From the NCBI RefSeq assembly GCF_030142155.1, contig NZ_CP126247.1, positions 1,798,001 through 1,862,000 on the forward strand: 64,000 nucleotides of DNA. Reading direction: 5' to 3'. The notes beneath the pieces were generated by a model. That model did not search any database. It was not told where the DNA came from and was given only the letters and a program-made list of their open reading frames with translations. The translations under genes and the position numbers were made by a program. This document shows, one piece after another, positions 6,532 to 22,432 of this stretch; the stretch's first letter is position 1, and each line of letters starts with the position of its first letter. The stretch comes from Arthrobacter sp. zg-Y820 (lineage in GTDB: Bacteria > Actinomycetota > Actinomycetes > Actinomycetales > Micrococcaceae).

Positions 6532-7497
6532 TTAGAAGCAGATCTTCCGAAGATACCGGTAGCCGACTTCCGCGGTCCTCAGCGGTGTGACGTCCGGCTG
6601 GTCGTTTTCGACGATGTACTCCTGCGGCTGGTGCGCTTTGAAAATGCGTGAGAAATCGATGGTTCCGGCACCCAGATCTGCGAAATCGCCGGTAGCATCG
6701 CGGTCCTTCACGTGGTACTGCAGAACCTTCTGCGGTGCCTGTTTAATCGTGTCGATAGCGAACCGGACGGGGTCGGCAGCTCCGACTCCAACGCCGCCGG
6801 TGACCGCCCAGTACAGGTCGACTTCCAGATGGACCAGCCTCGGGTCGAGGCGGCTTGTGAAAATGTCCCAGGGGGTGAGCCCGCCCCCGAGGTCAGTGGT
6901 GAACTCGTGCGCGTGGTTGTGATAGCCGTATTTGATCCCGGCCCTGCGTACGACAGCCGCTTCGGCGTTCATTTGGTCTGCCCACCGGTACCAGTCATCC
7001 GCATTGTCGGACGCAAGGTACGGAACAACCATGTACGTCTGGCCGAGCGTCTGTGCGTTGGAGATCTTTGTGCGCAGTTCCGCGGGTGTCGCGCTGATCC
7101 CTTCGTGGCTGGAAGAGGCCTGAATTCCGACACGCTTCAGGGTTCTCCGCATTTCTTTGGCTGTACGACCGTAGTACCCGGCCAGTTCGACGCGCTTGTA
7201 CCCGTACCGGGCAAGCTGTTGGAACGTCCTGTCGACATTCTCCTCGGTGATGATCGACCGCAGCGTGTAGAGCTGAATGCTGATGAGCCCCGGGGAAACC
7301 CGCCGATTGTCCCTGTGCCCGTGCCCGGGCTTGCCCTGGTGCCCCGGCCCGCGGGCGATGGCAGGAGCCGCCCCGGAACCGGCCAGGCCGACGCCAACGC
7401 CCGCGGCGAGTGCTCCGCGGATGAAATTGCGCCGGTCCACCCCCTTCTTCTCGAGAGAACGATTTAGTGCACCTGATGCGTCAAATCCAAAGCACAT
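6532..7497 (-). CDS. Tat-exported sugar phosphate isomerase/epimerase (TIM barrel)
   Basis: I chose the ATG at 7497 because AGAAAGG lies 8 bases upstream and the first 50 residues then form a twin-arginine signal: DRRNFIRGALAAGVGVGLAG ending near GAAPAIA. The mature 270-residue part is an AP-endonuclease-2-like TIM barrel: SIQLYTLRS, YKRVELAGYYG, GYHNHAHEF, HLEVDLYWAV and HVKDRD supply the usual metal-binding His, Glu and Asp. Relatives isomerise or epimerise sugars, cyclitols or their derivatives. Export is unusual for an enzyme acting on sugar phosphates and suggests a free sugar or glycoconjugate substrate. It is probably regulated by the nearby ROK protein. Confidence 0.85.
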   Translation of the reverse strand: MCFGFDASGALNRSLEKKGVDRRNFIRGALAAGVGVGLAGSGAAPAIARGPGHQGKPGHGHRDNRRVSPGLISIQLYTLRSIITEENVDRTFQQLARYGYKRVELAGYYGRTAKEMRRTLKRVGIQASSSHEGISATPAELRTKISNAQTLGQTYMVVPYLASDNADDWYRWADQMNAEAAVVRRAGIKYGYHNHAHEFTTDLGGGLTPWDIFTSRLDPRLVHLEVDLYWAVTGGVGVGAADPVRFAIDTIKQAPQKVLQYHVKDRDATGDFADLGAGTIDFSRIFKAHQPQEYIVENDQPDVTPLRTAEVGYRYLRKICF

Positions 7498-7666
7498 GCT
7501 GTTGCCTTTCTGACAGTAGAACGCATTGTCGCCGCCTCCGTTGGCAAGGGCGAGAACACGCACTGGAAGGTCGCTGGTGCAGTTCACCGAGCTGATCGAG
7601 AAAGGCCGCCGTCGCCGACAAGCTGTCCGCAACAACTCGGTACCAGCATTAGGGTCAAGATGTCCG

Positions 7667-7689
7667 TTTTGTTGTCTGGAACCACTAGC
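7667..7689 (+). promoter_or_regulatory. operator-like site A1, shared with 16420-16442
   Basis: This site contains TTGTT-N6-AACCA and ends in AACCACTAGC. The same 23-base pattern, 18 of 23 identical, lies upstream of the secreted sugar dehydrogenase gene. It sits about 170 bases upstream of the Tat-exported isomerase gene. A dyad TTGTT/AAC-A resembles ROK-family (XylR-type) operators, but the regulator is inferred. Confidence 0.4.
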
Positions 7690-7761
7690 AGGCGCCGGGC
7701 CGTACCGTTGGTGGAGCAATGGCGGTGACTGGAAATGAGTCCGTCGCATGAGGCTAGGTCG

Positions 7762-7811: not shown

Positions 7812-9020
7812 TCAGCTGGTACTTGTTTCCGAGAGTCCGGAGACCATGGCGTCGATGCGCTGGGGGGACATGGCGTGGTGAATGGCCAGCATGCTCGCGC
7901 CCAGCACGCCGGCGTCGAGACCGGAGCTGGAATGCACGATCTGAAGGTGCTGGGTGGCTAGCGGGACGGTACGCGAGTACACCGTTTCCCGGATGCCGGC
8001 GATGAAATGTTCGCCCGTCAGCGCCATGGATCCGCCAATGACGATCACCGAGGGGTTGATGAGGCTGATGCATGCCGAAAGTACGTCGCCGACGTCCCGC
8101 CCCGCCTGCCGCACTGCGTGGATCGCCTCCGTGCTTCCGGCGCGAACGAGTTCCACGACGTCTTCACTGCCGCTGGCCTCAAAGCCCTGGCGGCGCAGCT
8201 TGGCCGCCACGGCCGGGCCGGATGCTATGGCTTCCAGGCAGTCCGTATTTCCGCAGTGGCAGGGGACTCCGCTGCCGCCGTGCACGCGGATGTGCCCGAT
8301 GTCTCCGGCGACACCGTCAGCCCCGCGCTGCAGCATGCCGCTGGAGACAATGCCTGAACCGATTCCGGTGGCAACCTTGACGAAAAGCAGGTTGTCCACC
8401 TGGGGCCAGGCCATATTGCGCTCGCCCAGGGCCATGATGTTGACGTCATTGTCGACCAGGACAGGTACATGGAATCGTGCCTGCAGGTACCCGGGGACGT
8501 CATAGCCGTTCCATCCGGGCATGATGGGGGGATTGATGGGCCGGCCGGTGCGGTGTTCCACGGGCCCGGGCAGTCCGATGCCAACAGCCAGGAGGTCGGT
8601 CAGGGAACGTCCGGTGCCGTCGAGCAGTTCCGTGCCGAGTTCGACAACCGCCTCCAGGACTGCCTCCGGACCCCGCGTGATTTCCAGTGCGCGCGCAGAC
8701 TGGGACAGCAGATGCCCGGTGAGGTCGGTGACGGCCATCTGGAGGTGCGACGCGCCAATGTCCACTCCGAGCACGACCCGGCTGCCTGCCTTGAGCGCAA
8801 TCCGGGACGAAGGCCGCCCGCCGGTGGATACAGCATCCTGAACGAACCCTACGAGTCCCAGGTCCATAAGTGCTTCGATCCGAAGCGTGACTGTTGAGCG
8901 CGCCAGTCCCAGCTGCTCGGCGAGCTCTGACCGGGTGCGTGGGTTCCCGTCGCGGAGGATTTGGAAGAGCTCGCTCGCTCCGGACGATGCAAGACCGTTA
9001 ACGTTACTTATGTCACTCAC
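7812..9020 (-). CDS. ROK family transcriptional regulator
   Basis: An N-terminal winged helix (SELFQILRDGNPRTRSELAE, then LGLARSTVTLRIEAL) is followed by a ROK sugar-kinase-like domain with VLGVDIGASH, the GHIRVHG segment, and the zinc-site signature CHCGNTDCLEAIASG. ROK regulators are repressors released by a sugar or sugar phosphate. I chose the GTG at 9020, which gives the normal 402-residue length. An ATG at 9140 would add 40 residues with no family resemblance. It diverges from the ebo operon and also lies beside the isomerase gene, so either or both may be its targets. Confidence 0.85.
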   Translation of the reverse strand: MSDISNVNGLASSGASELFQILRDGNPRTRSELAEQLGLARSTVTLRIEALMDLGLVGFVQDAVSTGGRPSSRIALKAGSRVVLGVDIGASHLQMAVTDLTGHLLSQSARALEITRGPEAVLEAVVELGTELLDGTGRSLTDLLAVGIGLPGPVEHRTGRPINPPIMPGWNGYDVPGYLQARFHVPVLVDNDVNIMALGERNMAWPQVDNLLFVKVATGIGSGIVSSGMLQRGADGVAGDIGHIRVHGGSGVPCHCGNTDCLEAIASGPAVAAKLRRQGFEASGSEDVVELVRAGSTEAIHAVRQAGRDVGDVLSACISLINPSVIVIGGSMALTGEHFIAGIRETVYSRTVPLATQHLQIVHSSSGLDAGVLGASMLAIHHAMSPQRIDAMVSGLSETSTS

Positions 9021-9180
9021 CGACTCATTACAGCATAAAGGCGACGGAACCCTTGACTTCACTGCCGTCGCGCACTCGTCCGCACAAAGTATCGACTGAA
9101 TGACGGTACCGCGAAGCAAAGATATATCGGAATACCTCATAAGTTCGTTGGTCCCTGACGTTACCTATGTTAGGTTCCCT

Positions 9181-9263: not shown

Positions 9264-10478
9264 TTGCTTAGGGACACCCATGGGGGCTGGACGTACGGCA
9301 AGACGGGCATCTGGCTCATCGGCGCACGGGGATCGGTGGCAACTACCGCAGTGATGGGCCTGGCCGCCATCGCGGCCGGGCTGGCGAAACCGCTGGGATG
9401 CGTCACGGAACATGGTGATTTTCGCGGCGTGCACCTCCCGAACTACGCAGACCTTGTGGTCGGCGGGCACGACATCAGCGGTGTTTGCATGGCCAAGCGG
9501 GCGGAGAAACTTGTTGATGCCGGCATGGTCCCCGGCGAGCTTTTTGAATCAGTCCGGCCCCAGCTCCTTGACGCGGACAGCCGGGTGCGTCCCGGGTACG
9601 ACCCCGTCGGAGGAACAGAGTCGCAGGCTGATGCTGCGCTTCGTCTGTCCGGCGACATCCTTGCGTTCCGGGAGATAAACAGCCTGCAGCGGGTCATCGT
9701 CTTGGACGTCGCCTCGACAGAGGCGCCGCCGGACCACCTCGACGAGTTCGACGACGTCGGCCTCCTGAAAGCGGCCCTGCAGGACCCCGCACGGTCCGTC
9801 CTGCCCGCCAGCTCGGTAGCGGCCTATGCAGCGGTTCTGGCGGGCTCGCCCTATATCTGCTTCACGCCGTCGACGGCGCTGAACATTCCTGCGCTGCACG
9901 AGCTTGCCGGAGCGGACGGGGTTCCGACAGCCGGACAGGATGGCAAGACCGGCCAGACCTGGCTGCGTTCGGTACTGGCTCCGGCCCTGTCCGCACGCGG
10001 GCTGCGGGTGCTCTCGTGGGCTGGAACGAATTTGCTGGGCGGCGGTGACGGCGCCACGCTTGCGGACAGCAGGGCAGTTTCCGCGAAGCTGCAGTCAAAG
10101 AACCGGGGGTTGAGGGAGCTCACTGGAGGTGCGGCAACTCCGCTGCACATTGACAACGTGCCGGACCTGGGCGAGACCAAAGTGGCCTGGGACCACATCC
10201 ACGTCGAAGGCTTCCTGGGCTCCCGCCTGACGATCCAGACAACCTGGAGCGCCTATGACTCCATGCTGGCAGCTCCGATGGTGCTGGACCTCGCCCGGCT
10301 AATGGCACTCGCCGACGCCGCCGGAGAAACCGGGCATGTTGGTGCCCTGGGCTTCTTCTTCAAAGACCCCTGGGGCAGCGACGAGCATTCCTTCGCGCAG
10401 CAGACGAACAACCTGGTGCAGTGGGCGCATGGCGCCAGCGGCCGCCTTACTGCCAACACGGACGGTGATCAGCCGTGA
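9264..10478 (+). CDS. myo-inositol-1-phosphate synthase-like cyclase
   Basis: This 404-residue protein has the family's NAD-binding N-terminus (IWLIGARGSVATTAVMG) and the NLLGGGDGATLADSRAVSAKLQSKNRGL segment. The latter corresponds to the SYNHLGNNDG..L...KQFRSKE region of inositol-3-phosphate synthases. It is divergent: Asn-rich NAD-loop residues are replaced by ARGSVAT. The family converts glucose 6-phosphate to inositol 3-phosphate, and here the product may be a different cyclitol phosphate. The start is TTG with GAGGAGGA three bases upstream, which is close. No better start is visible. It overlaps the next gene by GTGA, so it leads the operon. Confidence 0.8.
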   Translation: MLRDTHGGWTYGKTGIWLIGARGSVATTAVMGLAAIAAGLAKPLGCVTEHGDFRGVHLPNYADLVVGGHDISGVCMAKRAEKLVDAGMVPGELFESVRPQLLDADSRVRPGYDPVGGTESQADAALRLSGDILAFREINSLQRVIVLDVASTEAPPDHLDEFDDVGLLKAALQDPARSVLPASSVAAYAAVLAGSPYICFTPSTALNIPALHELAGADGVPTAGQDGKTGQTWLRSVLAPALSARGLRVLSWAGTNLLGGGDGATLADSRAVSAKLQSKNRGLRELTGGAATPLHIDNVPDLGETKVAWDHIHVEGFLGSRLTIQTTWSAYDSMLAAPMVLDLARLMALADAAGETGHVGALGFFFKDPWGSDEHSFAQQTNNLVQWAHGASGRLTANTDGDQP

Positions 10479-11356
10479 CCCGGTTCGGTGATTATCTCGA
10501 GCTGGTCCGGGCTCCTGCTGTTCTCACCGTCCTGGGCGACACCGTGGCAGGCGGCGCTGCTGCCGGCCGCGCCCTGAGCGGCCGGTGGATGTGGATGCCT
10601 CTGGCGAGCGCGTGCCTCTATGCCGGGGGAATGGCCCTGAACGACTACGCGGACCGCGACGTCGATGCCCGCGAACGACCGAAGCGCCCCATCCCGTCCG
10701 GAAGGGTAAGCGCCGGAAGTGCCCTGGCCGCGGCCTCTGCCCTCACCGTCGCGGGACTCGGGTTGTGTGCCGCGGCCGGTGGACGGAGCGCACTGGCTCT
10801 GGGGATCCCGCTCGCGGCGTCCATCTGGACGTATGACCTCATCGCGAAGGACCACGCGCTCATAGGAGCACTCTCGATGGGCAGCTGCCGGGCCCTGGAC
10901 GTCCTGATGGGCGCGGGCGCAGGTCATGTGAGGCCGGCACTCGGGGCGGCGGGCATCATGGGCGGCCATACCGTCGCCGTGACGCTCCTTTCCCGCGGTG
11001 AAGTCGAAGGGACAGACGCCGTGATCGCTTCCGGCGCCGCCGCAACCACCGGACTGGTTGCCGCCGCAGTCGTGGCCGGCTCGTCCGGACCGCCGGCCAG
11101 GATGCTTGCCGTTCTCGCTGCCACTGCTGCCTATGCCGCAAGATGTGGGCCCGCCCAGATAAGGGCAGCGCGGAGTCCGGCGGCATCAAACGCCTTGGCC
11201 GCGACCCGGGCCGGCATCCGCGCGATGATTCCGCTCCAAGCAGCGCTCGCGGTTCGGTACGGACATCCGACGGCTGCAGGTGCACTGGTTGCAGTGGATG
11301 TCCTGGGCAAGATCCTCCGGTCCCGTCCCAACGGCAGGAAGGTGAGCGAGTCATGA
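10475..11356 (+). CDS. eboC: UbiA-like prenyltransferase, EboC/SCO3242 type
   Basis: This is a 293-residue membrane protein with about eight hydrophobic segments. The first Asp-rich motif is NDYADRDVDARERPKRPIPSGR (about residues 61-82), the prenyl-diphosphate/Mg site of UbiA enzymes. The second is reduced to YDLIAKD. In ebo clusters EboC is the UbiA-type member, thought to attach a prenyl group to, or move, a precursor at the membrane. It starts with GTG overlapping the cyclase stop and ends overlapping the next ATG (ATGA), so translation is coupled on both sides. Confidence 0.85.
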   Translation: MTRFGDYLELVRAPAVLTVLGDTVAGGAAAGRALSGRWMWMPLASACLYAGGMALNDYADRDVDARERPKRPIPSGRVSAGSALAAASALTVAGLGLCAAAGGRSALALGIPLAASIWTYDLIAKDHALIGALSMGSCRALDVLMGAGAGHVRPALGAAGIMGGHTVAVTLLSRGEVEGTDAVIASGAAATTGLVAAAVVAGSSGPPARMLAVLAATAAYAARCGPAQIRAARSPAASNALAATRAGIRAMIPLQAALAVRYGHPTAAGALVAVDVLGKILRSRPNGRKVSES

Positions 11357-12858
11357 CCGTCACGCCATCGTCAGTTCCCTTCAGCATCGGGTACGGCACC
11401 AACGGCTTCATGGACCATCCCCTGCCCGACGTACTCGAGCTGCTGCACGAACTCGGCTACGGCTCGGTGGCCCTGACGCTCGGCCATCCCCACCTTGACC
11501 CGTTCGCCCCCGACCTGGAAGCCCGGCTGAGCTGGCTGCGCAGCCGTCTCGAAGAGCTGGAGCTTCGCCTGGTCATAGAGACGGGAACGCGTTTCCTGCT
11601 CAATCGCCGAGAGAAGCACCGCCCCGCTCTCGTTGACGAAGAGGCTGCAGCCCGTGTCGATTTCCTGCGCCGCGCGGTAGACATCGCGGCGGTGCTCAAC
11701 GCCGAATGCGTCTCCTTCTTTTCGGGGATCCTGCCTCCGGGAGTCAGCACCGAGTCCGGTTGGCAGCGGCTGCAGACCCGGGTTGCTGAGGTCCTGGAGC
11801 ATGCCGCCGAAAACGGGGTCGTGCTCGCCATTGAACCGGAACCCGGGATGCTCGTTGAGACGGTCGCTGATGCGCTCGAGCTTCGGACCCGGCTCGGCAA
11901 TCCGGAAGGGCTCAGGGTGACCGTCGACATCGGACACTGCGTGGTGGTTGAGCCCGGAGGCGTGCGCGGTGCGCTGATGGAAGCTGGAGCGCTGCTGGCC
12001 AACGTCCAGCTCGACGACATGAGATCCGTGGCCCACGAACACCTTCCGTTCGGGGAAGGGGAGGTCAACGTTCCGCTGGCTCTGGCAACGCTGGCGGAGC
12101 TGGATTACCGCGGCGTGGCCGCCGTGGAGCTGCCCCGCCACTCCTTCGATGCTCCGAACCTGGCTGCCCGGAGCATGGCCGCTCTGCAGGGCGCCTGGCG
12201 GGAAGCGCAGGCCGGCAAGGCCGCGGAGGAGTGGCTGCTGGAGAGCACGGGCAGGATCGCCGAAGATCCCAGTGCCCTGCCGGGGATCTTCGCTGCAGCC
12301 GGTCGCAGGGTGGGCCGCAGCCCGGTGCATCCGGACACCGATCCCACGGGGGTTCTCCATGGCAGCAGCAGCGATTATGCCCGCGGTGAGCTCATTCGGC
12401 GCCTGCAGGAGTTCCTCCCGCCGGAAGACCTGGCCGGGACCGTCCTGTCGCTCTACGACCGGGGGGACTCCTCGGAACGGCGCGGAGTGCTTCGGGGGCT
12501 GGGGTCACTGGCAGCGCAGGATCCGGACCTGCCGGCTCCGGTCGTGGCAGCGGGCCTGCGGCTGACGGTCGAGGCGCTGCGGACCAACGAGACCGGCCTC
12601 GTCGCGGCCGCCGTCGGCCCCTTCGCCGCTGCCCACCTTGATCAGCACAACTGGCGCCACGCAGTCCTGAAACTGGTCTTCATGGGCGTCAGCCTTGCGG
12701 CCGTCACCGACCTGAACGATCGCGCCGACGCTGAACTGGCGCGCATGGCCGCCGATTTCGCCGCCGAACGGCAGGCAGCGGGACGTCCGGTACCTGACGA
12801 CGTCGTTCTCCTGCTGAACCGTGCAGCCAGCCCCTCCGTCTCTCGCAAGGAGTCCTAG
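11353..12858 (+). CDS. eboA: sugar phosphate isomerase fused to an EboA domain
   Basis: ATG at 11353 overlaps the preceding TGA and gives 501 residues. Residues 1-285 are a TIM-barrel isomerase with the metal ligands in LAIEPEPGMLVE, VTVDIGHC, QLDDM and AAVELPRHS. Residues about 310-490 match EboA: LTVEALRTNETGLVAA, NWRHAVLKLVFMGVSLAAV, RADAELARMAADFAAERQAAGR. EboA is required for ebo-dependent metabolite traffic in cyanobacteria and is usually a separate protein of unknown activity. The fusion ties it physically to a sugar-type isomerase. I am confident of both halves. The substrate is unknown. Confidence 0.85.
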   Translation: MTVTPSSVPFSIGYGTNGFMDHPLPDVLELLHELGYGSVALTLGHPHLDPFAPDLEARLSWLRSRLEELELRLVIETGTRFLLNRREKHRPALVDEEAAARVDFLRRAVDIAAVLNAECVSFFSGILPPGVSTESGWQRLQTRVAEVLEHAAENGVVLAIEPEPGMLVETVADALELRTRLGNPEGLRVTVDIGHCVVVEPGGVRGALMEAGALLANVQLDDMRSVAHEHLPFGEGEVNVPLALATLAELDYRGVAAVELPRHSFDAPNLAARSMAALQGAWREAQAGKAAEEWLLESTGRIAEDPSALPGIFAAAGRRVGRSPVHPDTDPTGVLHGSSSDYARGELIRRLQEFLPPEDLAGTVLSLYDRGDSSERRGVLRGLGSLAAQDPDLPAPVVAAGLRLTVEALRTNETGLVAAAVGPFAAAHLDQHNWRHAVLKLVFMGVSLAAVTDLNDRADAELARMAADFAAERQAAGRPVPDDVVLLLNRAASPSVSRKES

Positions 12859-12860
12859 CC

Positions 12861-13739
12861 ATGCGTATTTTCGACCCGCATATCCACATGACCAGCCGCA
12901 CGACCGACGACTATGCCGCCCTCTACGCGGGCGGGGTGCGGGCACTGGTTGAGCCCGCCTTCTGGTTGGGGCAGCCCCGGACCAGCGTCGGATCGTTCAT
13001 CGACTATTTTGATTCCCTGCTGGGGTGGGAACGGTTCCGGGCTTCCCAATTTGGTATTCGCCACCACGCCACGATCGCCCTTAACCCCAAGGAGGCAAAC
13101 GATCCCAGATGCGTCCCCGTCCTGGACGAGATTCCCCGGTACCTGGCGAAAGAAGGCGTCGTTGCCGTCGGGGAGATCGGCTTTGATTCGATGACCCCGG
13201 CGGAGGATGAAGCCTTCATCCGCCAACTGGACCTGGCCCACGAGTTTTCCCTTCCTGCGCTGGTGCACACCCCGCACCGGGAGAAGCTCCTGGGCACGCG
13301 CCGGACACTGGACATCATTCGTGAGTCGGCGCTTGCTCCTTCGATGGTGGTGGTGGACCACCTCAATGAGACGAACGTGGGCATGGTGAAGGACGCCGGA
13401 GCCTGGATGGGGTTCTCCATCTATCCGGACACCAAGATGGACGAAAAACGCCTGGTCGCGATACTTCACGAGTACGGAACGGACAAGGTGCTGGTTAATT
13501 CTGCGGCGGACTGGGGCAAGTCCGACCCGCTCAAGACGGTGAGCACGGCGAAAGCCATGCTCACCGGTGGATTCACGGCGGACGACGTCGAACGGGTCCT
13601 GTGGCAGAATCCGGTCGACTTCTACGGCCAAAGCGGCCAGCTGATCCTCGATCCGATCCCCGGGTTTGACGGCGCGGAGCTGGGCGGAGCCGGGGCGACG
13701 TTCGAAGGCAACTCACTGCTGCGGGGTGTCCGCGCCTAA
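12861..13739 (+). CDS. eboB: TatD-like amidohydrolase, EboB
   Basis: The 292-residue protein begins MRIFDPHIHMTSRTTDDY, the first metal-binding HxH of TatD-type hydrolases. It continues with VAVGEIGFD (metal Glu), ALVHTPH, VVVDHLNE and VNSAADWG, where the final metal Asp sits. It is shorter on secondary motifs than TatD DNases and fits the ebo-linked EboB group, whose hydrolytic substrate is unknown. ATG follows the previous stop by two bases, and the stop overlaps the next ATG (TAATG). Confidence 0.85.
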   Translation: MRIFDPHIHMTSRTTDDYAALYAGGVRALVEPAFWLGQPRTSVGSFIDYFDSLLGWERFRASQFGIRHHATIALNPKEANDPRCVPVLDEIPRYLAKEGVVAVGEIGFDSMTPAEDEAFIRQLDLAHEFSLPALVHTPHREKLLGTRRTLDIIRESALAPSMVVVDHLNETNVGMVKDAGAWMGFSIYPDTKMDEKRLVAILHEYGTDKVLVNSAADWGKSDPLKTVSTAKAMLTGGFTADDVERVLWQNPVDFYGQSGQLILDPIPGFDGAELGGAGATFEGNSLLRGVRA

Positions 13740-14863
13740 TGCGGCTTTCCTACTGCACCAACGTGCATCCGGCGGAGGACCTTGACGGGGTAATCCGGCA
13801 GCTCCGCGACTACGCCGGCCCTGTCCGCCGCAGAGCAGGCCTGGACGTTCTCGGCGTCGGGCTGTGGCTGCCGGCAGGCCTCGCCAGCCGTCTGGCGGGA
13901 AGCGCCGGGGACATCGCGGTGCTTCGGGAGGTCCTCACCGAGCAGGGCCTGCACATCCACACCCTGAACGCCTTTCCCTACGGCGGCTTCCACAACGAGG
14001 TTGTGAAGACGGACGTCTACAAGCCCACCTGGGCACAGCGGGAGCGGCTGCAGTACACGCTGGAGTGCGCCGAGGTCCTCGCCGCCCTGTTGCCGGAAGA
14101 CACCCCGGGGTCAATCTCCACGCTGCCTCTGGGCTGGCGTGATCCCTGGACGGCCGACGACGACGCCGCCGCCACCGTGGCGTTCGCTGAGCTGTGCGAA
14201 GGGTTGCGAACGCTGAAGGAGCGCACGGGAAAGACGGTCCGGATAGCTGTGGAACCGGAACCGGGCTGCGTGCTCGACACCGTCTCGGATGTTGCAGGAT
14301 GGCTGGCGGCACGCATCCCGAGAGGCATCGACCCCGAGTACGTCGGCCTGTGCATAGACACGTGCCACCTGGCGGTGTCCTTCGCCGATCCGGCCGCCGC
14401 CGTCCGCAGCGTCGGGGCAGCAGGCCTGCGCATCGTCAAAGTCCAAGCTTCCGCCGCACTGCACGTGGCCGCGCCCTCGGACGAGGCCGCCCGCAGCGCG
14501 CTCGAGGCGTTCGCGGAACCGCGCTACCTGCACCAGGTCCGGGAGCTGGGACGCGACGGGACCGTGTTGATGGCAGACGACTTGCCGCAGGCGCTGAACG
14601 GGCTGCCGGGCAGAGGCCCCTGGCGAGTCCATTTCCACATGCCGCTGCACCTGGTGCCGGACCTTCCGCTGGAGACGACGGCGGAAGTGCTGGAAAGAAC
14701 CGTGGCTGAAGTCAGCAGCCTGCCGTACGGGCACGAAGTGCACCTGGACATTGAAACCTACACGTGGAGTGTCCTGCCCGGGAAACAAACCGATCTCGTG
14801 GAAGGAATAGCAGGAGAAATCGCCTGGGCCCGGTCCCACCTGTTGGCCCCGGCGCCGTCCTGA
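13739..14863 (+). CDS. eboE: metabolite traffic protein EboE
   Basis: The 374-residue TIM barrel begins MRLSYCTNVHPAEDLDGVI and contains TLNAFPYGGFHNEVVKTDVY, GSISTLPLGW, IAVEPEPGCVLDTV, GLCIDTCHLAVSF, HFHMPLHL and HLDIETYTWSVLP. All are typical of EboE, a xylose-isomerase-like member of ebo clusters. Family knowledge places ebo proteins in movement of a precursor to the periplasm or outside of the cell in scytonemin-producing cyanobacteria. The biochemical reaction of EboE is not established. Confidence 0.9.
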   Translation: MRLSYCTNVHPAEDLDGVIRQLRDYAGPVRRRAGLDVLGVGLWLPAGLASRLAGSAGDIAVLREVLTEQGLHIHTLNAFPYGGFHNEVVKTDVYKPTWAQRERLQYTLECAEVLAALLPEDTPGSISTLPLGWRDPWTADDDAAATVAFAELCEGLRTLKERTGKTVRIAVEPEPGCVLDTVSDVAGWLAARIPRGIDPEYVGLCIDTCHLAVSFADPAAAVRSVGAAGLRIVKVQASAALHVAAPSDEAARSALEAFAEPRYLHQVRELGRDGTVLMADDLPQALNGLPGRGPWRVHFHMPLHLVPDLPLETTAEVLERTVAEVSSLPYGHEVHLDIETYTWSVLPGKQTDLVEGIAGEIAWARSHLLAPAPS

Positions 14864-14902
14864 CGACAGCCATGCATGCCCCACTACATCTAAGGAGAAC
14901 CC

Positions 14903-16303
14903 TTGAAACCGGTACTGCTGCTCGACGTCGTGGGGCTCACTGCCCTGTCACTGCGGCACATGCCCCGCCTGTCCAAACTCGCTGCCGCGGGGTGGTCCTC
15001 CGAACTGGCCACCGTCCTTCCGGCCGTCACCTGCACGGTCCAGTCCACCATGCTCACCGGCCTGGCGCCGTCGGAACACGGGATTGTCGGCAACGGCTGG
15101 TATTTCCGTGAACTTGGGGACGTCTTCTTTTGGCGCCAGCACAACAAGCTGGTCGCCGGAGAAAAGATCTGGGAAAGTGCCCGGCGCAAAGAACCGGATT
15201 ACCGCGCCGGCAACATTTGCTGGTGGTACGCCATGGGCATGTCAACGGACCTGACAGTGACTCCCCGCCCGATCTATCACGCGGACGGAAGGAAATCGCC
15301 GGACGCCTACATCCGTCCGCCGGCGCTGCATGAGGACTTGGTGTCCCGGTACGGCGAGTTTCCGCTGTTCCAGTACTGGGGCCCGGGCGCAGGCATTCAA
15401 TCCACGCAATGGATCGTTGAGTCGACCCGGCACGTTCTGCGAAGCCAGGCACCGGAGCTCCTCATGGCGTATCTTCCGCATCTCGATTATGACCTTCAGC
15501 GTTTCGGCCCCAACCACACCCAAGCCGCCACCGCCGCTGCCGAGCTTGATGCGGCACTGGCTCCCTTGCTGGACGAAGCCCAGGCCCGCGGGTACGCGGT
15601 CATCGCCGTAGCCGAGTACGGGATCGAAGACGCACATCTGCCCGTGGACATTAACCGAGTCCTGCGCAGGGAGGGCTTGCTGGAGGTCTATGTACAGGAC
15701 GGGAAGGAGCAACTGGATACGTGGGCCTCCCGCGCCTTTGCCGTCGCAGACCACCAGGTGGCGCACGTTTACGTCCAGGATGCAGGCGACGTGGCCCGCA
15801 CAGCGGATATTCTCAGGGCGACCCGGGGGATCGATGAAGTCCTGGACCGGAATGCCCAGGGGAAGTACGGGCTGGACCATGAGAGGTCCGGAGAACTCGT
15901 CGTTATTGCCGAGCCGGGCGCCTGGTTCACGTACTATTTCTGGCTCGACGATGCCCGTGCGCCCGAATATGCACGCGGCGTCGATATCCATAGAAAGCCG
16001 GGGTATGACCCGGGCGAACTCTTCTTCGACCCGGCTGACAAGCTGGCGAAGGCCAAGGCGGGCCTGAACCTGATCAGGAAAAAAGCCGGGCTGCGCTATG
16101 CCATGAGCACCGTGCCTTTGAACCCAGGGCACGTCCGCGGGACTCACGGGAGGCTTCCCGGCTCTCGAAACAGCACGCCGATGGTGATCTCTTCCGAAGA
16201 ACGAATGCCGCCTTTTGCCGAAGAGCTGCTGCGCCGAGGGAAACCCGTCCCTGCTGCAGCGGTCAAGTCCCTCGTCCTCCAAACACAGGGACTGCCCGAA
16301 TGA
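14903..16303 (+). CDS. alkaline phosphatase superfamily phosphodiesterase, EboF type
   Basis: The 466-residue protein starts with TTG preceded by AAGGAGA. LLLDVVGLT supplies the first metal Asp. VLPAVTCTVQSTMLTGLAPSEHGIVGNGW holds the catalytic Thr and metal ligands of the nucleotide pyrophosphatase/phosphodiesterase branch. YLPHLDYDLQRFGPNH and later His-containing loops (near VADHQVAH, NPGHVRGTHG) complete the metal site. No signal peptide is evident. As the last ebo gene it would remove or transfer a phosphate or nucleotide from the pathway intermediate. The gap to EboE is 39 bases. Confidence 0.85.
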   Translation: MKPVLLLDVVGLTALSLRHMPRLSKLAAAGWSSELATVLPAVTCTVQSTMLTGLAPSEHGIVGNGWYFRELGDVFFWRQHNKLVAGEKIWESARRKEPDYRAGNICWWYAMGMSTDLTVTPRPIYHADGRKSPDAYIRPPALHEDLVSRYGEFPLFQYWGPGAGIQSTQWIVESTRHVLRSQAPELLMAYLPHLDYDLQRFGPNHTQAATAAAELDAALAPLLDEAQARGYAVIAVAEYGIEDAHLPVDINRVLRREGLLEVYVQDGKEQLDTWASRAFAVADHQVAHVYVQDAGDVARTADILRATRGIDEVLDRNAQGKYGLDHERSGELVVIAEPGAWFTYYFWLDDARAPEYARGVDIHRKPGYDPGELFFDPADKLAKAKAGLNLIRKKAGLRYAMSTVPLNPGHVRGTHGRLPGSRNSTPMVISSEERMPPFAEELLRRGKPVPAAAVKSLVLQTQGLPE

Positions 16304-16522: not shown

Positions 16523-18724
16523 ATGACAGTCACAAGACGCGGGTTAGCTCAATCACCCGGGCATCCGACGGATGCCAGCAAAACTTCGGCCAAGCGTGCA
16601 CGGCGCGGCAGCATGGCGCTGGCGCTGGCCGCGCTGATGGCCGTATCGCTTGCGGCAGCTCCGGCACAGGCGAAACCGCGGCCGGGGGCGCCCGAAGCGC
16701 CTCCGCCGGACTCGGCGTTCCAAAAAGTAACCCTGAACGACTTCCCGGGCGAACCCGTCGATCTCGCGGTGCTGCCCAATAAGGACGTCCTGCATACCAC
16801 CCGCCAGGGTGAGGTATGGCTGAACGACGCCGCCACGGGCCTGAATACCCTGGCGGGGACCCTCGACGTCTATGAGCACGACGAAGAAGGTTTGCAGAGC
16901 ATCGCGATTGATCCGAAGTTCGGGAAAAGAGGCCACAACTGGGTCTACATGTACTATTCCCCGCCCCTGGATACGCCGGTTGATGATCCGGCAACCCCGG
17001 GTGTCAACGAGGGCGATGCGCCTGCCACGGGTACGCCCGCGGATTTTGAGCCCTTCAAGGGATACCTCCAGCTGTCGAGGTTCCGGTTCGACGGCTCCAC
17101 CATCAACCTGGCCAGCGAACAGCGGATGCTGGAGGTGCCCGTAGACCGCGGCCTCTGCTGCCATGTCGGGGGCGACATCGTTTTCGACGCCCAGGGGAAC
17201 CTTTACCTCTCCACGGGTGACGACACCAATCCCTTCTCGTCCGGCGGCTACAGCCCGCTCGACGAACGGCCCGAAAGCAACCCGGCGTACGATGCCCAGC
17301 GGACCTCCGGCAACACAAACGACCTCCGCGGCAAGGTGCTGCGGATAACCCCCCAGAGAGACGGCGGATACACTATCCCCAAGGGAAACCTCTTTCGGCC
17401 AGGAACTCCTCTCACGCGTCCCGAAATCTACGTGATGGGGCTGCGTAACCCGTTCCGCATTGAACTGGACCGGAAGACCGGCGAGCTCTTCATCGCGGAT
17501 TATTCACCCGACGCCGGCAGCGCCGACCCACTCCGGGGTCCGGCGGGAACCGGCAAATGGGCAGTTGTGACCAAGCCGTCCAACTACGGCTGGCCCTACT
17601 GCGCCACCGCAGAGCTCCCTTACGTGGACTACGACTTCGCCACCAATACCTCCGGTGCGGCGTTCAACTGCGCGGCACCCGTAAACGAGTCGCCCAACAA
17701 CACGGGTCTGCGCAGGCTGCCCCCGGTGGCCCAGCCTGAGGTCTGGTATTCCTACGACGCTTCCGAGAACTTCCCGGAACTGGGCTCCGGCGGAATCGGC
17801 CCGATGGCCGGCCCGGTCTACGATTTCGACAAGAAGGCGAGCAAGGGACGGTCGTCCGTGGCCTGGCCGAAATACTACGACGGCAAGTCGTTCCTGTACG
17901 AGTGGACACGTGACTACATCAAGGCGATGACCATGAAGAGGGGCGAGCTCGCCTCGATCGAGGACGTCGTCAGCTCAATGGTGGTCGACAACCCCATGGA
18001 TATGGAGTTCGGCCCTGACGGCGCGCTGTACGTACTGGAGTACGGTGACGGGTATTTCGGTGAGAACCCGGACGCCCAGCTCTCCCGCATCGACTACATC
18101 GGCGAGGGCGGGAACCACAGCCCGGTAGCCGTGGCTTCCGGTAATCCCACCGTGGGCCTGCCTCCCCTGACCGTCCAGTTCTCCAGCGCGGGCACCACGG
18201 ACGCGGACGGCGACAGGCTGCGCTACGCATGGGACTTCAATTCCGATGGCGTGGTGGACTCGCGGAATCCCAATCCGACGCACACCTATGAAGAGATCGG
18301 AACCTACAGGGCAAGCCTCCAGGTGACCGATCAGGGTGGCAAGCACAGGGGCAAGTCCTCGTCCGCGGAGGTTGTTGTTGAAGTAGGCAACCAGGCGCCG
18401 GTGGTGGAGTTTGTGACGCCTGTCGCAGGTCAAACCTTCCAGTTCGGTGACACCGTCAGCTACGAAGTTGTCGTCACCGACGACCAGCCTGTGGATTGCT
18501 CTCAGGTCCAGGTCACCTACATTCTGGGTCACGACGCCCACGGTCACCCGCAAACGAGCACCACGGGCTGCACCGGGACCATCACCACCACCGTGCCTGA
18601 GGGGCATGATCCCGGCGTCGACAACCTGTCGGGCGTTTTCAGTGCTTCCTACACGGATGCGGGTGATGGTGGAACGGGTCCCTTGACCGGAACCGCCGAA
18701 GTTGTTCTGACTCCCACCAGCTAG
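16523..18724 (+). CDS. secreted PQQ-dependent sugar dehydrogenase-like protein with PKD domain
   Basis: This is a 733-residue exported protein. The basic N-terminus with RRGSMALALAALMAVSLAAA and a likely cut after APAQA forms a signal peptide, possibly Tat. Residues about 60-530 form a glucose/sorbosone dehydrogenase-type beta-propeller (DEEGLQSIAIDPKF, CHVGGDIVFDAQGNLYLSTGD, YVMGLRNPFRIELD). Residues about 535-615 are a PKD domain (PPLTVQFSSAGTTDADGD, YAWDFNSDGVVDS), and a further beta domain ends the protein. It probably oxidises a sugar outside the cell using PQQ or a related cofactor. No PQQ synthesis genes are in the window. Confidence 0.85.
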   Translation: MTVTRRGLAQSPGHPTDASKTSAKRARRGSMALALAALMAVSLAAAPAQAKPRPGAPEAPPPDSAFQKVTLNDFPGEPVDLAVLPNKDVLHTTRQGEVWLNDAATGLNTLAGTLDVYEHDEEGLQSIAIDPKFGKRGHNWVYMYYSPPLDTPVDDPATPGVNEGDAPATGTPADFEPFKGYLQLSRFRFDGSTINLASEQRMLEVPVDRGLCCHVGGDIVFDAQGNLYLSTGDDTNPFSSGGYSPLDERPESNPAYDAQRTSGNTNDLRGKVLRITPQRDGGYTIPKGNLFRPGTPLTRPEIYVMGLRNPFRIELDRKTGELFIADYSPDAGSADPLRGPAGTGKWAVVTKPSNYGWPYCATAELPYVDYDFATNTSGAAFNCAAPVNESPNNTGLRRLPPVAQPEVWYSYDASENFPELGSGGIGPMAGPVYDFDKKASKGRSSVAWPKYYDGKSFLYEWTRDYIKAMTMKRGELASIEDVVSSMVVDNPMDMEFGPDGALYVLEYGDGYFGENPDAQLSRIDYIGEGGNHSPVAVASGNPTVGLPPLTVQFSSAGTTDADGDRLRYAWDFNSDGVVDSRNPNPTHTYEEIGTYRASLQVTDQGGKHRGKSSSAEVVVEVGNQAPVVEFVTPVAGQTFQFGDTVSYEVVVTDDQPVDCSQVQVTYILGHDAHGHPQTSTTGCTGTITTTVPEGHDPGVDNLSGVFSASYTDAGDGGTGPLTGTAEVVLTPTS

Positions 18725-20228: not shown

Positions 20229-21308
20229 TCAAAGCGAACGAAGACCGTCAACCACCGAAGACAGAAGTCCTTCCAAGGTCTCGCCGAGCCCAGCCGGCAC
20301 TTCCTCTCCCAATTGCTTGAGGGCGGACTGGGCATGCTCGGATGCCAGTTGGACAGCGTGTTCCCGCGCCCCGCATTCCGTCAGCAGGGTACGGACTCTT
20401 TGCGCCTCCGCAGCCGTCATCCGGTCGGATCCTATGAGTTCCGCAATCCGCCCCCACTGAGGTTTCGTCGCCGCGTAGGAGAGCATGGCTGTCCGTTTGC
20501 CTTCCCTGAGGTCTCCCCAGTTCGTCTTTCCGGTGTGCTGTTCCTGCCCGAAAACCCCGAGGACGTCATCAGCAATCTGGTAGGCAATTCCGGCGTCGCG
20601 TCCGAAGGCTGCGAGTGTTGCTGCAACGGAGGCCGCGGCTCCCGCCAGCACCGCGCCGGCCTGAAGCGGGGCTTCAAAGGAGTAGACGGACGTTTTTCGG
20701 CGGGCCACCGTCCGGATCTCCTCCGGCGAGGGCATCTCCACGGCGCGGGCGAATTCGACATCCAGGAGTTCTCCGCCGATCGAGGAGAACACTGCGTAGT
20801 CCAGGATGCCGTCGAGTTTCTCCCGGACCTTGGCGCACGTTTCGACGCTTCCGTGGAGGCGGTAGGCCCCGGCAAGGACCAGGTCTCCGGCAAGGAGTCC
20901 GGATGTCATGCCGGCATGCTGGGCGGCCGAGGCCGAAGCGCCTGCGCGCCGGGCCTTGTTGCTGTAGTGCCCGGAGACGTTGGGAACGCCGTGCCTCATG
21001 ATGTCCCTGTCGATGACGTCGTCATGGATGAGGAACGCATTGTGGAGGAGTTCATAGGCGGCTGCGAGCCTGGCCGCGGCGGCGGGCTCCGTTCCTCCCA
21101 GCTGGCGGTAGGCCAGCAGAAGAAGACGCGGGCGAAAGCGTTTTCCGCTGGCGGCGCTCCGTTCGATGGCTTCCCAAAGGCTGAGGTAGGCCGGATGGAC
21201 GGAGACCGCGCGCAGCTTGGCGTCCGTGAAGAACCAGTCCAGCACTTCTTCAACCAGGTCCAGATCGGCATCCGTTTCCAGTGCGTACTCTGTGTTAAGG
21301 AAGTTCAC
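20229..21308 (-). CDS. polyprenyl diphosphate synthase
   Basis: The 359-residue protein starts at GTG 21308 with AGGGGG 9-14 bases upstream. It has both aspartate-rich motifs: HDDVIDRDIMRHG (FARM, residues about 92-104) and YQIADDVLGVFGQ (SARM, about 245-257), plus GKRFRPRLLLL near the N-terminus. Such enzymes condense isopentenyl diphosphate with an allylic primer to give C15-C20 or longer chains. It lies 71 bases behind the sugar-importer permease in the same direction. I infer that it supplies prenyl diphosphate to the UbiA-type EboC. Confidence 0.9.
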   Translation of the reverse strand: MNFLNTEYALETDADLDLVEEVLDWFFTDAKLRAVSVHPAYLSLWEAIERSAASGKRFRPRLLLLAYRQLGGTEPAAAARLAAAYELLHNAFLIHDDVIDRDIMRHGVPNVSGHYSNKARRAGASASAAQHAGMTSGLLAGDLVLAGAYRLHGSVETCAKVREKLDGILDYAVFSSIGGELLDVEFARAVEMPSPEEIRTVARRKTSVYSFEAPLQAGAVLAGAAASVAATLAAFGRDAGIAYQIADDVLGVFGQEQHTGKTNWGDLREGKRTAMLSYAATKPQWGRIAELIGSDRMTAAEAQRVRTLLTECGAREHAVQLASEHAQSALKQLGEEVPAGLGETLEGLLSSVVDGLRSL

Positions 21309-21379
21309 TGCTGCGCCCCCTGCTTGTTCTTCGCTGCCTGCCGATGCCCGCTGCCGATGCCGTCGCTGCGTGCGTGAGA

Positions 21380-22432
21380 CTAGCCTCCCCGCTTGGATGG
21401 CCGCCCGGCGGCGAAACGCTGCTGCAGGAGGACCGCGACCACGATGATCGAGCCTTTCACTATGGCTTGGACGGAGGTGTCCAGGTTGTTTTGCGTAAAG
21501 ACGTTGGTGAGGGTGCTGAAGATGAGCACACCGAGGACCGTGCCCATAATGGTTCCGCGGCCGCCGATAAGCAGGGTTCCTCCTACGACGACGGCGGCAA
21601 TCGCGTCGAGTTCGTAGAGCAGGCCGTGGGTTGAGGTGCCTGCCGTTGTTCGGCCGAGCATCATCACTGCGGCAATGCCGGCGCAGAGCCCGGAGAGAAC
21701 GTAGAGCGTCACCAAGTGCCGTTTGACCTTTATGCCTGCGAGCCGGGACGCTTCGCGGTTTCCTCCAATCGCAACGGTCCTCCGGCCGAAGGTGGTGCGG
21801 TTCAGCAGGAACCAGCCCGTCGCAGCCGCCACGATGAAAATCCACACGAGAACCGGAACGCCGAGGAACTCGCCCCTCATGACCTTGAGGAAGTCCCGGT
21901 TCGTCACGATTTGGGTGCTCCGGCCTGAGATGAGTTCAGCCAGGCCTCGTGCCGCCACAAGCGTCGCGAGCGTGGCGATGAAGGCCACCACGTTTCCGTA
22001 GGCAATCACCACCCCGTTCAACAGCCCGACTCCCGCGCCGACCGCGAGTGGGACCAGGACCATGATCAGCCACGATGATTCGGTTGCCGCGAGCTGGACG
22101 CTCTTCAGGCTGGCGACCACCGTGGCCAGGCCCATGACGGACCCCACGGAAAGGTCGATGCCCCCGGCGGTAATGACGAAGGTGACGCCAATGCTGATGA
22201 CGCCGATGACGGACGCAAGCCGCAGGATGGTGAGCAGGTTCTCCACATTCAGGAACCGGTCGCCACTGGTGACCGCGCCCACCACGAACAGCAGGGCCAG
22301 CGCAATGACCAGACCGAGGCTGCGACCCACGGAACCGCCAAGGGCACCTTTCAGCGGGTTCGTCCTGGCTGGGCTGGAGCCGCCGGGCGGGGTGTCAGCT
22401 GGATTAGCGACAGTGGTGTTTGGCTCGCTCAC
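21380..22432 (-). CDS. RbsC-type sugar ABC transporter permease
   Basis: The 350-residue protein has about nine membrane segments and the signatures GVTFVITAGGIDLSVGSVMG and GGNREASRLAGIKV of the RbsC/XylH/MglC permease family. It starts with GTG overlapping the ATPase stop (GTGA), so the two are translationally coupled. With the ATPase upstream and the divergent binding protein it makes a complete ribose/rhizopine-type importer. Confidence 0.9.
   Translation of the reverse strand: MSEPNTTVANPADTPPGGSSPARTNPLKGALGGSVGRSLGLVIALALLFVVGAVTSGDRFLNVENLLTILRLASVIGVISIGVTFVITAGGIDLSVGSVMGLATVVASLKSVQLAATESSWLIMVLVPLAVGAGVGLLNGVVIAYGNVVAFIATLATLVAARGLAELISGRSTQIVTNRDFLKVMRGEFLGVPVLVWIFIVAAATGWFLLNRTTFGRRTVAIGGNREASRLAGIKVKRHLVTLYVLSGLCAGIAAVMMLGRTTAGTSTHGLLYELDAIAAVVVGGTLLIGGRGTIMGTVLGVLIFSTLTNVFTQNNLDTSVQAIVKGSIIVVAVLLQQRFAAGRPSKRGG

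Follow-up and report, generated by a model that had tools for sequence, protein, structure and literature searches.

An ebo-type gene cluster of Arthrobacter carries a myo-inositol phosphate synthase relative and a TIM-barrel partner in the slot of EboD

Six tightly packed genes on the forward strand form an ebo-type cluster without EboD (positions 9264-16303) in a 64,000-nucleotide stretch of the genome of Arthrobacter sp. zg-Y820 (contig NZ_CP126247.1, positions 1,798,001 to 1,862,000), hereafter termed the window. Here the slot of EboD, the cyclase of the known ebo operon (eboABCDEF), is very probably filled by a module of two enzymes, a relative of myo-inositol phosphate synthase (MIPS) that we term ebo-type MIPS and a xylose-isomerase-like TIM barrel. 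The MIPS-TIM pair was found on at least two ebo backbones, in each case with EboD missing from the cluster; this recurrence is the strongest argument for functional replacement. Combined with an inferred chemistry in which a ring is formed, prenylated and used in export, the filling of the EboD slot provides the best explanation of the whole, to which we assign a probability of roughly 0.6.

All open reading frames were confirmed at these coordinates. The operon begins with the MIPS-like cyclase of the ebo-type clade in the slot of EboD (9264..10478; Pfam PF07994, 162 bits, and PF01658, 97 bits), followed in the position of EboC by a UbiA-family prenyltransferase of the SCO3242 family (10475..11356; NF045897, 309.7 bits, cut-off 260). 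The third reading frame (11353-12858) encodes a fusion, the N-terminal half of which is the TIM barrel, the partner of the cyclase (11353..12210; AP_endonuc_2, 122 bits, residues 29-278), and the C-terminal half an EboA domain (12343..12858; NF035938, 141.5 bits, cut-off 50, residues 341-487). An EboB-type TatD-family hydrolase (12861..13739; Pfam TatD_DNase, 51.7 bits), the TIM-barrel protein EboE (13739..14863; NF035939, 423.7 bits, cut-off 250) and an EboF-type type I phosphodiesterase/nucleotide pyrophosphatase (14903..16303; PF01663 (Phosphodiest), 197.6 bits) complete the operon. By Pfam scan, the prenyltransferase also matched UbiA, and AP_endonuc_2 was matched in two of the operon proteins. 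Translation of these genes is probably coupled, since 4-base overlaps link the MIPS gene to the prenyltransferase gene and the latter to the fusion gene, a gap of 2 bases precedes EboB, the final base of EboB is also the first of EboE (13739, a 1-base overlap) and EboF follows after 39 bases.

An earlier note on this DNA had described six coupled ebo-type genes with a MIPS relative and no EboD, and the reading frames, models and packing agree with this description. Its reference to recognizable EboC and EboA proteins stands for the EboA domain model and the SCO3242 model; by contrast, the window prenyltransferase fell below the cut-off of the EboC model (NF035940, 163.7 bits, cut-off 250) and the fusion below that of the EboA-family model (54.2, cut-off 320). 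In Deinococcus and Azospirillum, the proteins that occupy the EboC position of EboD-type clusters were likewise below the NF035940 cut-off, and the SCO3242 model was passed and the EboC model failed by all four actinobacterial prenyltransferases scanned (window, L023, L037 and L041). The EboB call is based on the generic TatD model of Pfam, as no EboB-specific curated model turned up; counterparts 62-73% identical to the window EboB were found in 18 of 18 actinobacterial loci, and these counterparts align in one tree with EboD-type rows (the window EboB is not a row of that tree). Close relatives of EboF were also present in all 18 loci and share one tree with EboD-type EboF. Searches of solved structures returned no matches for EboE and the EboA domain and two distant phosphodiesterase-type matches for EboF. 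The window shares with the ebo operon EboE, the EboA domain, the TatD-type, UbiA-family and EboF-type proteins and the tight clustering, and differs from it by MIPS and an extra TIM barrel for EboD, by the TIM-EboA fusion, by gene order and by an SCO3242-family prenyltransferase. The fusion is not universal, with TIM and EboA encoded by separate genes in Streptomyces camelliae.

MIPS converts glucose 6-phosphate to inositol 3-phosphate via oxidation, aldol closure and reduction. Eight residues of the Archaeoglobus fulgidus enzyme (N255, K274, K278, K306, K367, D225, D261 and D332) were identical in 22 of 22 ebo-type sequences, in an alignment that leaves out the host Ino1 (L001). The lysines among these residues we take to be catalytic, and solved variants changed at K278, K367 and N255 turned up in the structure search. 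The simplest expectation from these residues is that ebo-type MIPS would run the normal MIPS reaction. As sugar phosphate cyclases also use NAD and aldol closure, the analogy between ring closure by MIPS and by EboD is chemically reasonable. Sequence relatives of the TIM clade include ketose epimerases and IolI, in keeping with a predicted role as isomerase or epimerase of an inositol-derived ketone.

Compared to classical MIPS/Ino1 (A. fulgidus 1u1i and 3qvx; host Ino1), the window MIPS is of the same protein family and has the same catalytic residues, but ebo-type MIPS forms a separate tree group, and all 18 MIPS-bearing ebo loci also encode the TIM partner. Ebo-type sequences from Actinobacteria and Gemmatimonadota alike, the window MIPS among them, were set off in the MIPS tree from sister and canonical MIPS with a branch support of 100; only the host Ino1, whose row is very long and uncertain in its placement, lies with them on this side of the branch. 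A synthase of a five-membered cyclitol phosphate (PDB 6k96) provides an example of a special cyclitol product within the MIPS superfamily; its match to the window MIPS was weak and distant (E 8.5e-8 over about half of the length), and the enzyme presumably belongs to another pathway.

One draw of 296 actinobacterial genomes was searched five times (for EboE, MIPS, TIM and, by two models, EboD). EboE was matched in 18 genomes, 17 of them over the cut-off, and exactly these 17 were found to carry ebo-type MIPS (profile A3, 530-607 bits), with the MIPS gene about 4-5 kb from EboE in each. The next-best MIPS detected by this profile scored 347 bits, and sister MIPS of six genomes was at 330-347 bits. 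The TIM clade (profile A4, E <= 1e-40) was present in 23 genomes, namely the 17 with ebo-type MIPS and the six with sister MIPS. Profiles A3 and A4 each include 11 actinobacterial rows from loci later counted; six of the 17 genomes (G104, G123, G153, G154, G222 and G275) have no row in A3 and still score 530-597 bits. EboD over the curated cut-off (NCBIfam NF004852) was detected in 0 of the 296 genomes, the best match to EboD profile A2 was 192 bits (true EboD being at 475-607 bits and other superfamily members at most 208 bits with this profile), and the host genome had no NF004852 match at E <= 1e-60. A concern of the earlier note, that an EboD homologue might be encoded immediately outside of the cyclase-containing clusters in most relatives, did not materialize over the curated cut-off, and an EboD hidden elsewhere was rejected by NF004852 and profile A2 for this sample.

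The 17 genomes are distributed over eight genus and seven family codes. Five of these genera (g6, g9, g10, g23 and g129) mix members with and without EboE, and those without EboE also lacked ebo-type MIPS in every member seen; this agreement between EboE and MIPS within genera argues against mere shared ancestry. The order MIPS-EboC-TIM~EboA-EboB-EboE-EboF was kept in 16 of 18 further actinobacterial loci and is thus not due to chance. Of the two exceptions, L024 is a second ebo cluster of genome G123 with no cyclase gene in the stretch, the other G123 cluster having MIPS. The second (L040, of the 18th genome, G244) is a degraded ebo locus with EboE in two partial pieces and no MIPS in the stretch. 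At this degraded locus EboE was without its middle part and EboC was fragmented, and EboB, EboF and the EboA domain remained.

The survey of cyclases across phyla was based on 106 EboE-bearing loci. The actinobacterial draw contributed 18 and plasmid records 8, to which were added the best 80 of 582 relatives found in a species collection with a Gemmatirosa-led EboE alignment, which is why proportions among the 106 are not to be taken as frequencies. At thresholds of 150 bits for MIPS and 200 bits for EboD (with split or partial EboD in L070, L080 and L096 counted by score), 18 loci had MIPS without EboD, 70 had EboD without MIPS, none had both and 18 had neither. The mutual exclusivity of EboD and this MIPS that the earlier note had called for thus holds inside loci. 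The TIM clade (>= 150 bits) was found in 19 of the 106 loci, the 18 with MIPS and L024, and in none of the EboD loci.

The 18 loci with neither cyclase comprised L024, L040 and 16 others, for which the whole genomes were searched for EboD; true EboD was found elsewhere in eight and was absent from eight. Among the latter eight, L090 (Terrabacter) has a complete MIPS-type cluster elsewhere in its genome, L058 and L077 are ABCEF clusters without EboD, and five (L073, L086, L094, L114 and L127) have an EboE-like gene with no other ebo genes in the stretch. The EboE-like proteins of these five loci and of L090, where the stretch likewise had no other ebo genes, scored 488-505 bits with the EboE profile and are possibly an EboE paralogue with another role. 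When the 88 genomes or records behind the loci (8 of which are plasmid records only) were searched with the MIPS profile at E <= 1e-40, ebo-type MIPS was found only in S. camelliae, Gemmatirosa and Terrabacter; the other matches were two of sister type (307 and 308 bits) and seven at 224-275 bits.

The two sister-type matches belong to G311 and G345 (the genomes of L077 and L058), related alphaproteobacterial bins that carry EboA, B, C, E and F, no true EboD in the genome and, elsewhere, a MIPS of the type found in YcaO clusters. TIM is present in G311; the G345 contig breaks off before a TIM gene is reached. These bins represent one lineage, as their EboE proteins are 81% identical. Of 250 genomes of the order of G345, EboE was detected in only two, G345 itself and G511, which has EboD beside EboE.

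The sister MIPS genes of the six actinobacteria and of G311 have TIM nearby and no ebo genes; therefore, the module exists outside of ebo clusters too. In five of the six actinobacteria and in G311, the order was MIPS, a protein of unknown function, a methyltransferase, a Gfo/Idh oxidoreductase, a second unknown (not found in G311), YcaO, TIM and a GT4 glycosyltransferase. A PIG-L deacetylase follows GT4 in four of these five actinobacteria and in G311, and the fifth stretch ends there. In the remaining genome (G244, stretch L173), MIPS and TIM are adjacent and most other genes of the YcaO cluster were not found. We presume that this non-ebo cluster (MIPS-YcaO-TIM-GT4-PIG-L; L171-L176 and L197) resembles mycothiol assembly with an added YcaO enzyme.

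The second backbone was found in Gemmatimonadota, where 3 of 150 genomes (Gemmatirosa, G422 and G342) had ebo-type MIPS at 479-516 bits. In Gemmatirosa (L042), EboG-EboB-EboF-EboC-MIPS-TIM lie in a row with EboE divergent, and G422 (L219) has the same arrangement with EboE in two frames. G342 (stretches L218 and L221) carries a partial EboC, MIPS and TIM on one short contig, and EboD, EboE, EboF and a partial EboC on another short contig (L050), the title of which describes metagenome sequence at low coverage. Exchange of components is known from the EboG-type operons of Deinococcus and others, in which EboG takes the place of EboA (PMC5133447); unlike MIPS clusters, the two Deinococcus loci keep EboD.

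Trees of EboB, EboC, EboE and EboF were inferred by quick searches with SH-aLRT support, from 49-51 rows that represent 28-30 of the 70 EboD loci and leave out the window proteins (the L219 EboE row being the longer-scoring piece, 217 residues). The nearest relatives of the EboB, EboE and EboF proteins of the gemmatimonad MIPS clusters were EboD-type rows. Gemmatimonad EboB grouped with three EboD-type rows, of which Deinococcus was the closest, in a five-member set with a support of 100, and a joint clade of gemmatimonad and actinobacterial EboB was rejected by the approximately unbiased (AU) test (p 7.5e-6); for EboF, the AU value of such a clade was 0.034. Passage of the whole MIPS-type operon to Gemmatimonadota as one block was thus rejected for EboB and weakly for EboF, EboE being compatible with it. 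For EboC, a grouping of the gemmatimonad proteins with Deinococcus and a verrucomicrobium, picked after the EboB tree, was rejected (AU 1.2e-46). That the EboC-type prenyltransferase may have moved together with the cyclase is weakly supported by the actinobacterial grouping in the EboC tree.

The ebo genes are known from Cyanobacteria, Bacteroidota and eustigmatophyte plastids (PMC5133447), and two papers propose that their product is a cyclitol carrying a prenyl chain (PMC5133447, PMC6282210). Fusion of actinobacterial EboA to a xylose-isomerase domain has already been remarked, and the main text of the same paper mentions a few draft genomes without eboD and nowhere contains the word inositol (PMC5133447). 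In Nostoc punctiforme, deletion of each gene of a five-gene ebo cluster stops export, and the scytonemin monomer stays in the cytoplasm (PMC6282210). An actinobacterium, Saccharomonospora, is part of an ebo comparison in which the word inositol is absent from the sections consulted (PMC9235831), and SCO3242 and SCO3243, the latter a myo-inositol phosphate synthase, are listed under the CDA antibiotic cluster (PMC3610822). Among the matches listed by full-text searches of open-licence papers aimed at ebo and the cyclases, which miss most subscription papers, there was no report of MIPS in ebo clusters. The idea that ebo makes a prenyl-cyclitol has therefore been published before, and the cyclase swap itself was not found in the papers searched. 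The present analysis goes beyond the earlier note in placing the TIM half in the replacing module, in the second, gemmatimonad backbone and in the connection to the printed cyclitol-prenyl proposal (PMC5133447, PMC6282210).

The genes around the cluster were also surveyed. Upstream on the reverse strand, a divergently transcribed ROK-family protein (7812..9140; PF00480, 198 bits, and winged-helix matches) is a possible regulator, and its relatives flank the clusters of L037 and L039. Further upstream (6532-7749), an IolE-like TIM-barrel protein had a twin-arginine signal match below the cut-off; 9 of 18 actinobacterial loci had a gene 26-32% identical to it in the vicinity of EboF or MIPS. Downstream on the forward strand is a glucose/sorbosone-dehydrogenase (GSDH)-type protein with a PKD domain (16523..18724; PF07995 and PKD), in which a signal peptide was read by eye. 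A GSDH-type protein is beside the cluster in 13 of 21 actinobacterial loci, window included, and weaker relatives adjoin 12 of the 70 EboD loci (three were scanned, all GSDH). A polyprenyl synthetase on the reverse strand (20229..21845; PF00348, 150 bits, residues 227-483), with its true start inside the listed reading frame, possibly makes the prenyl donor; such a gene is near the cluster in 4 of the 21 loci (window, L023, L033 and L039).

The S. camelliae locus (L041) has a ScyD/ScyE-family protein directly before MIPS (243 bits, cut-off 80) and a multicopper oxidase gene after the ebo cluster. On this plasmid (L041:4191-16417), genes for the ScyD/ScyE-family protein, the MIPS-type ebo cluster, an aromatic prenyltransferase, a methyltransferase and the multicopper oxidase lie in a row. 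By analogy, this row looks like a scytonemin-style locus of export and oxidation, with a ScyD/ScyE-family neighbour that may echo ScyE in Nostoc. The adjacent gene for a 2Fe-2S protein (L041:16439-16762) is called tet(W/32/O) at 100% by a plasmid database, in what looks like a mislabel.

Based on these findings, we propose a pathway in which the cyclase would close glucose 6-phosphate to inositol 3-phosphate or stop at an inosose phosphate, and the TIM barrel would isomerize or epimerize the ring. The EboC-type prenyltransferase would then attach a prenyl chain, and EboB, EboE and EboF may trim or complete the product. Such a prenyl-cyclitol lipid would assist the passage of a metabolite through the membrane, as the Nostoc mutants suggest (PMC6282210), and the exported propeller-type enzymes encoded beside many clusters may act on the metabolite once moved.

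Several observations weigh against replacement of EboD by the MIPS-TIM pair in such a pathway. The swap events are few, at least two being independent, and some of the genomes in which MIPS and TIM were counted had also supplied rows to the respective profiles. L024 is without MIPS locally, and G342 holds both EboD and ebo-type MIPS on separate contigs. The exclusivity looked for in the earlier note is upheld at the genome level by the 296 actinobacteria but finds an exception in this bin, which either mixes two organisms or represents one organism with two clusters, given the low coverage of the L050 metagenome contig. The EboE tree is compatible with a joint gemmatimonad-actinobacterial clade (AU 0.436), and the joint EboC clade, in which gemmatimonad EboC is nearest to that of actinobacteria, has a support of only 20. 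With respect to function, the Nostoc study left eboD, which has paralogues in that genome, unanalysed, so that the cyclase is tied to export by a transposon phenotype of P. fluorescens described in the same paper (PMC6282210), and the Flavobacteria EboC that was assayed farnesylated quinolines in vitro (PMC9235831).

The main alternative is that clusters of the MIPS type yield another end product and have no more than the later steps (A, B, E and F) in common with those of the EboD type. The ring made by MIPS is expected to be C6 with its phosphate kept. By contrast, the EboD ring of the published proposal is C7 without phosphate (PMC5133447). The prenyltransferases also differ, as judged by the four actinobacterial proteins that pass the SCO3242 model and fail that of EboC, and EboG replaces EboA in the gemmatimonad form. 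However, both kinds of cluster retain the remaining core gene types, and the affinity of gemmatimonad EboB, EboE and EboF to EboD-type rows appears as if the later steps accept either ring. We consider a different product unlikely, though it deserves serious attention.

Two further explanations are far less probable. The operon MIPS could serve general inositol supply (for phosphatidylinositol or mycothiol) and be in the cluster by accident or co-regulation, and its checked catalytic residues are indeed those of ordinary MIPS. However, the host genome has a separate Ino1-like gene besides the operon MIPS, and the ebo-type clade occurs only with ebo in the 296 genomes and stands apart in the tree. 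A housekeeping role of the cyclase was rejected on the basis of the separate host gene, and we regard this explanation as very improbable. Slightly less credible again is a sugar-breakdown cluster whose likeness to ebo is one of shared folds only. The flanks do hold two ROK-family proteins, a GSDH-type protein, the IolE-like TIM barrel, an ABC transporter and a Gfo/Idh gene, but EboE and the EboA domain score above the curated cut-offs of their models, and 16 of the 18 further loci conserve the order of the six genes while the flanking neighbours vary.

Taken together, replacement of EboD by ebo-type MIPS and its TIM partner suggests that the ebo product is built on a sugar-derived carbon ring. 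More tentatively, and with somewhat less than even confidence, we propose that ebo clusters are modular makers of prenyl-cyclitol carrier lipids with an interchangeable ring step, which would be provided by EboD in most sampled phyla, by MIPS and TIM in Actinobacteria and some Gemmatimonadota and, in one alphaproteobacterial lineage, by a related MIPS encoded elsewhere in the genome (with TIM in one of two genomes). The swap of non-homologous cyclases argues independently for a ring closed from a sugar phosphate at the core of the ebo product. Ebo clusters are present in many phyla and some algal plastids, and the swap turns a vague guess into testable chemistry: the substrates and products of MIPS are open to routine assays, and isotope-labelled inositol can be supplied to Streptomyces.

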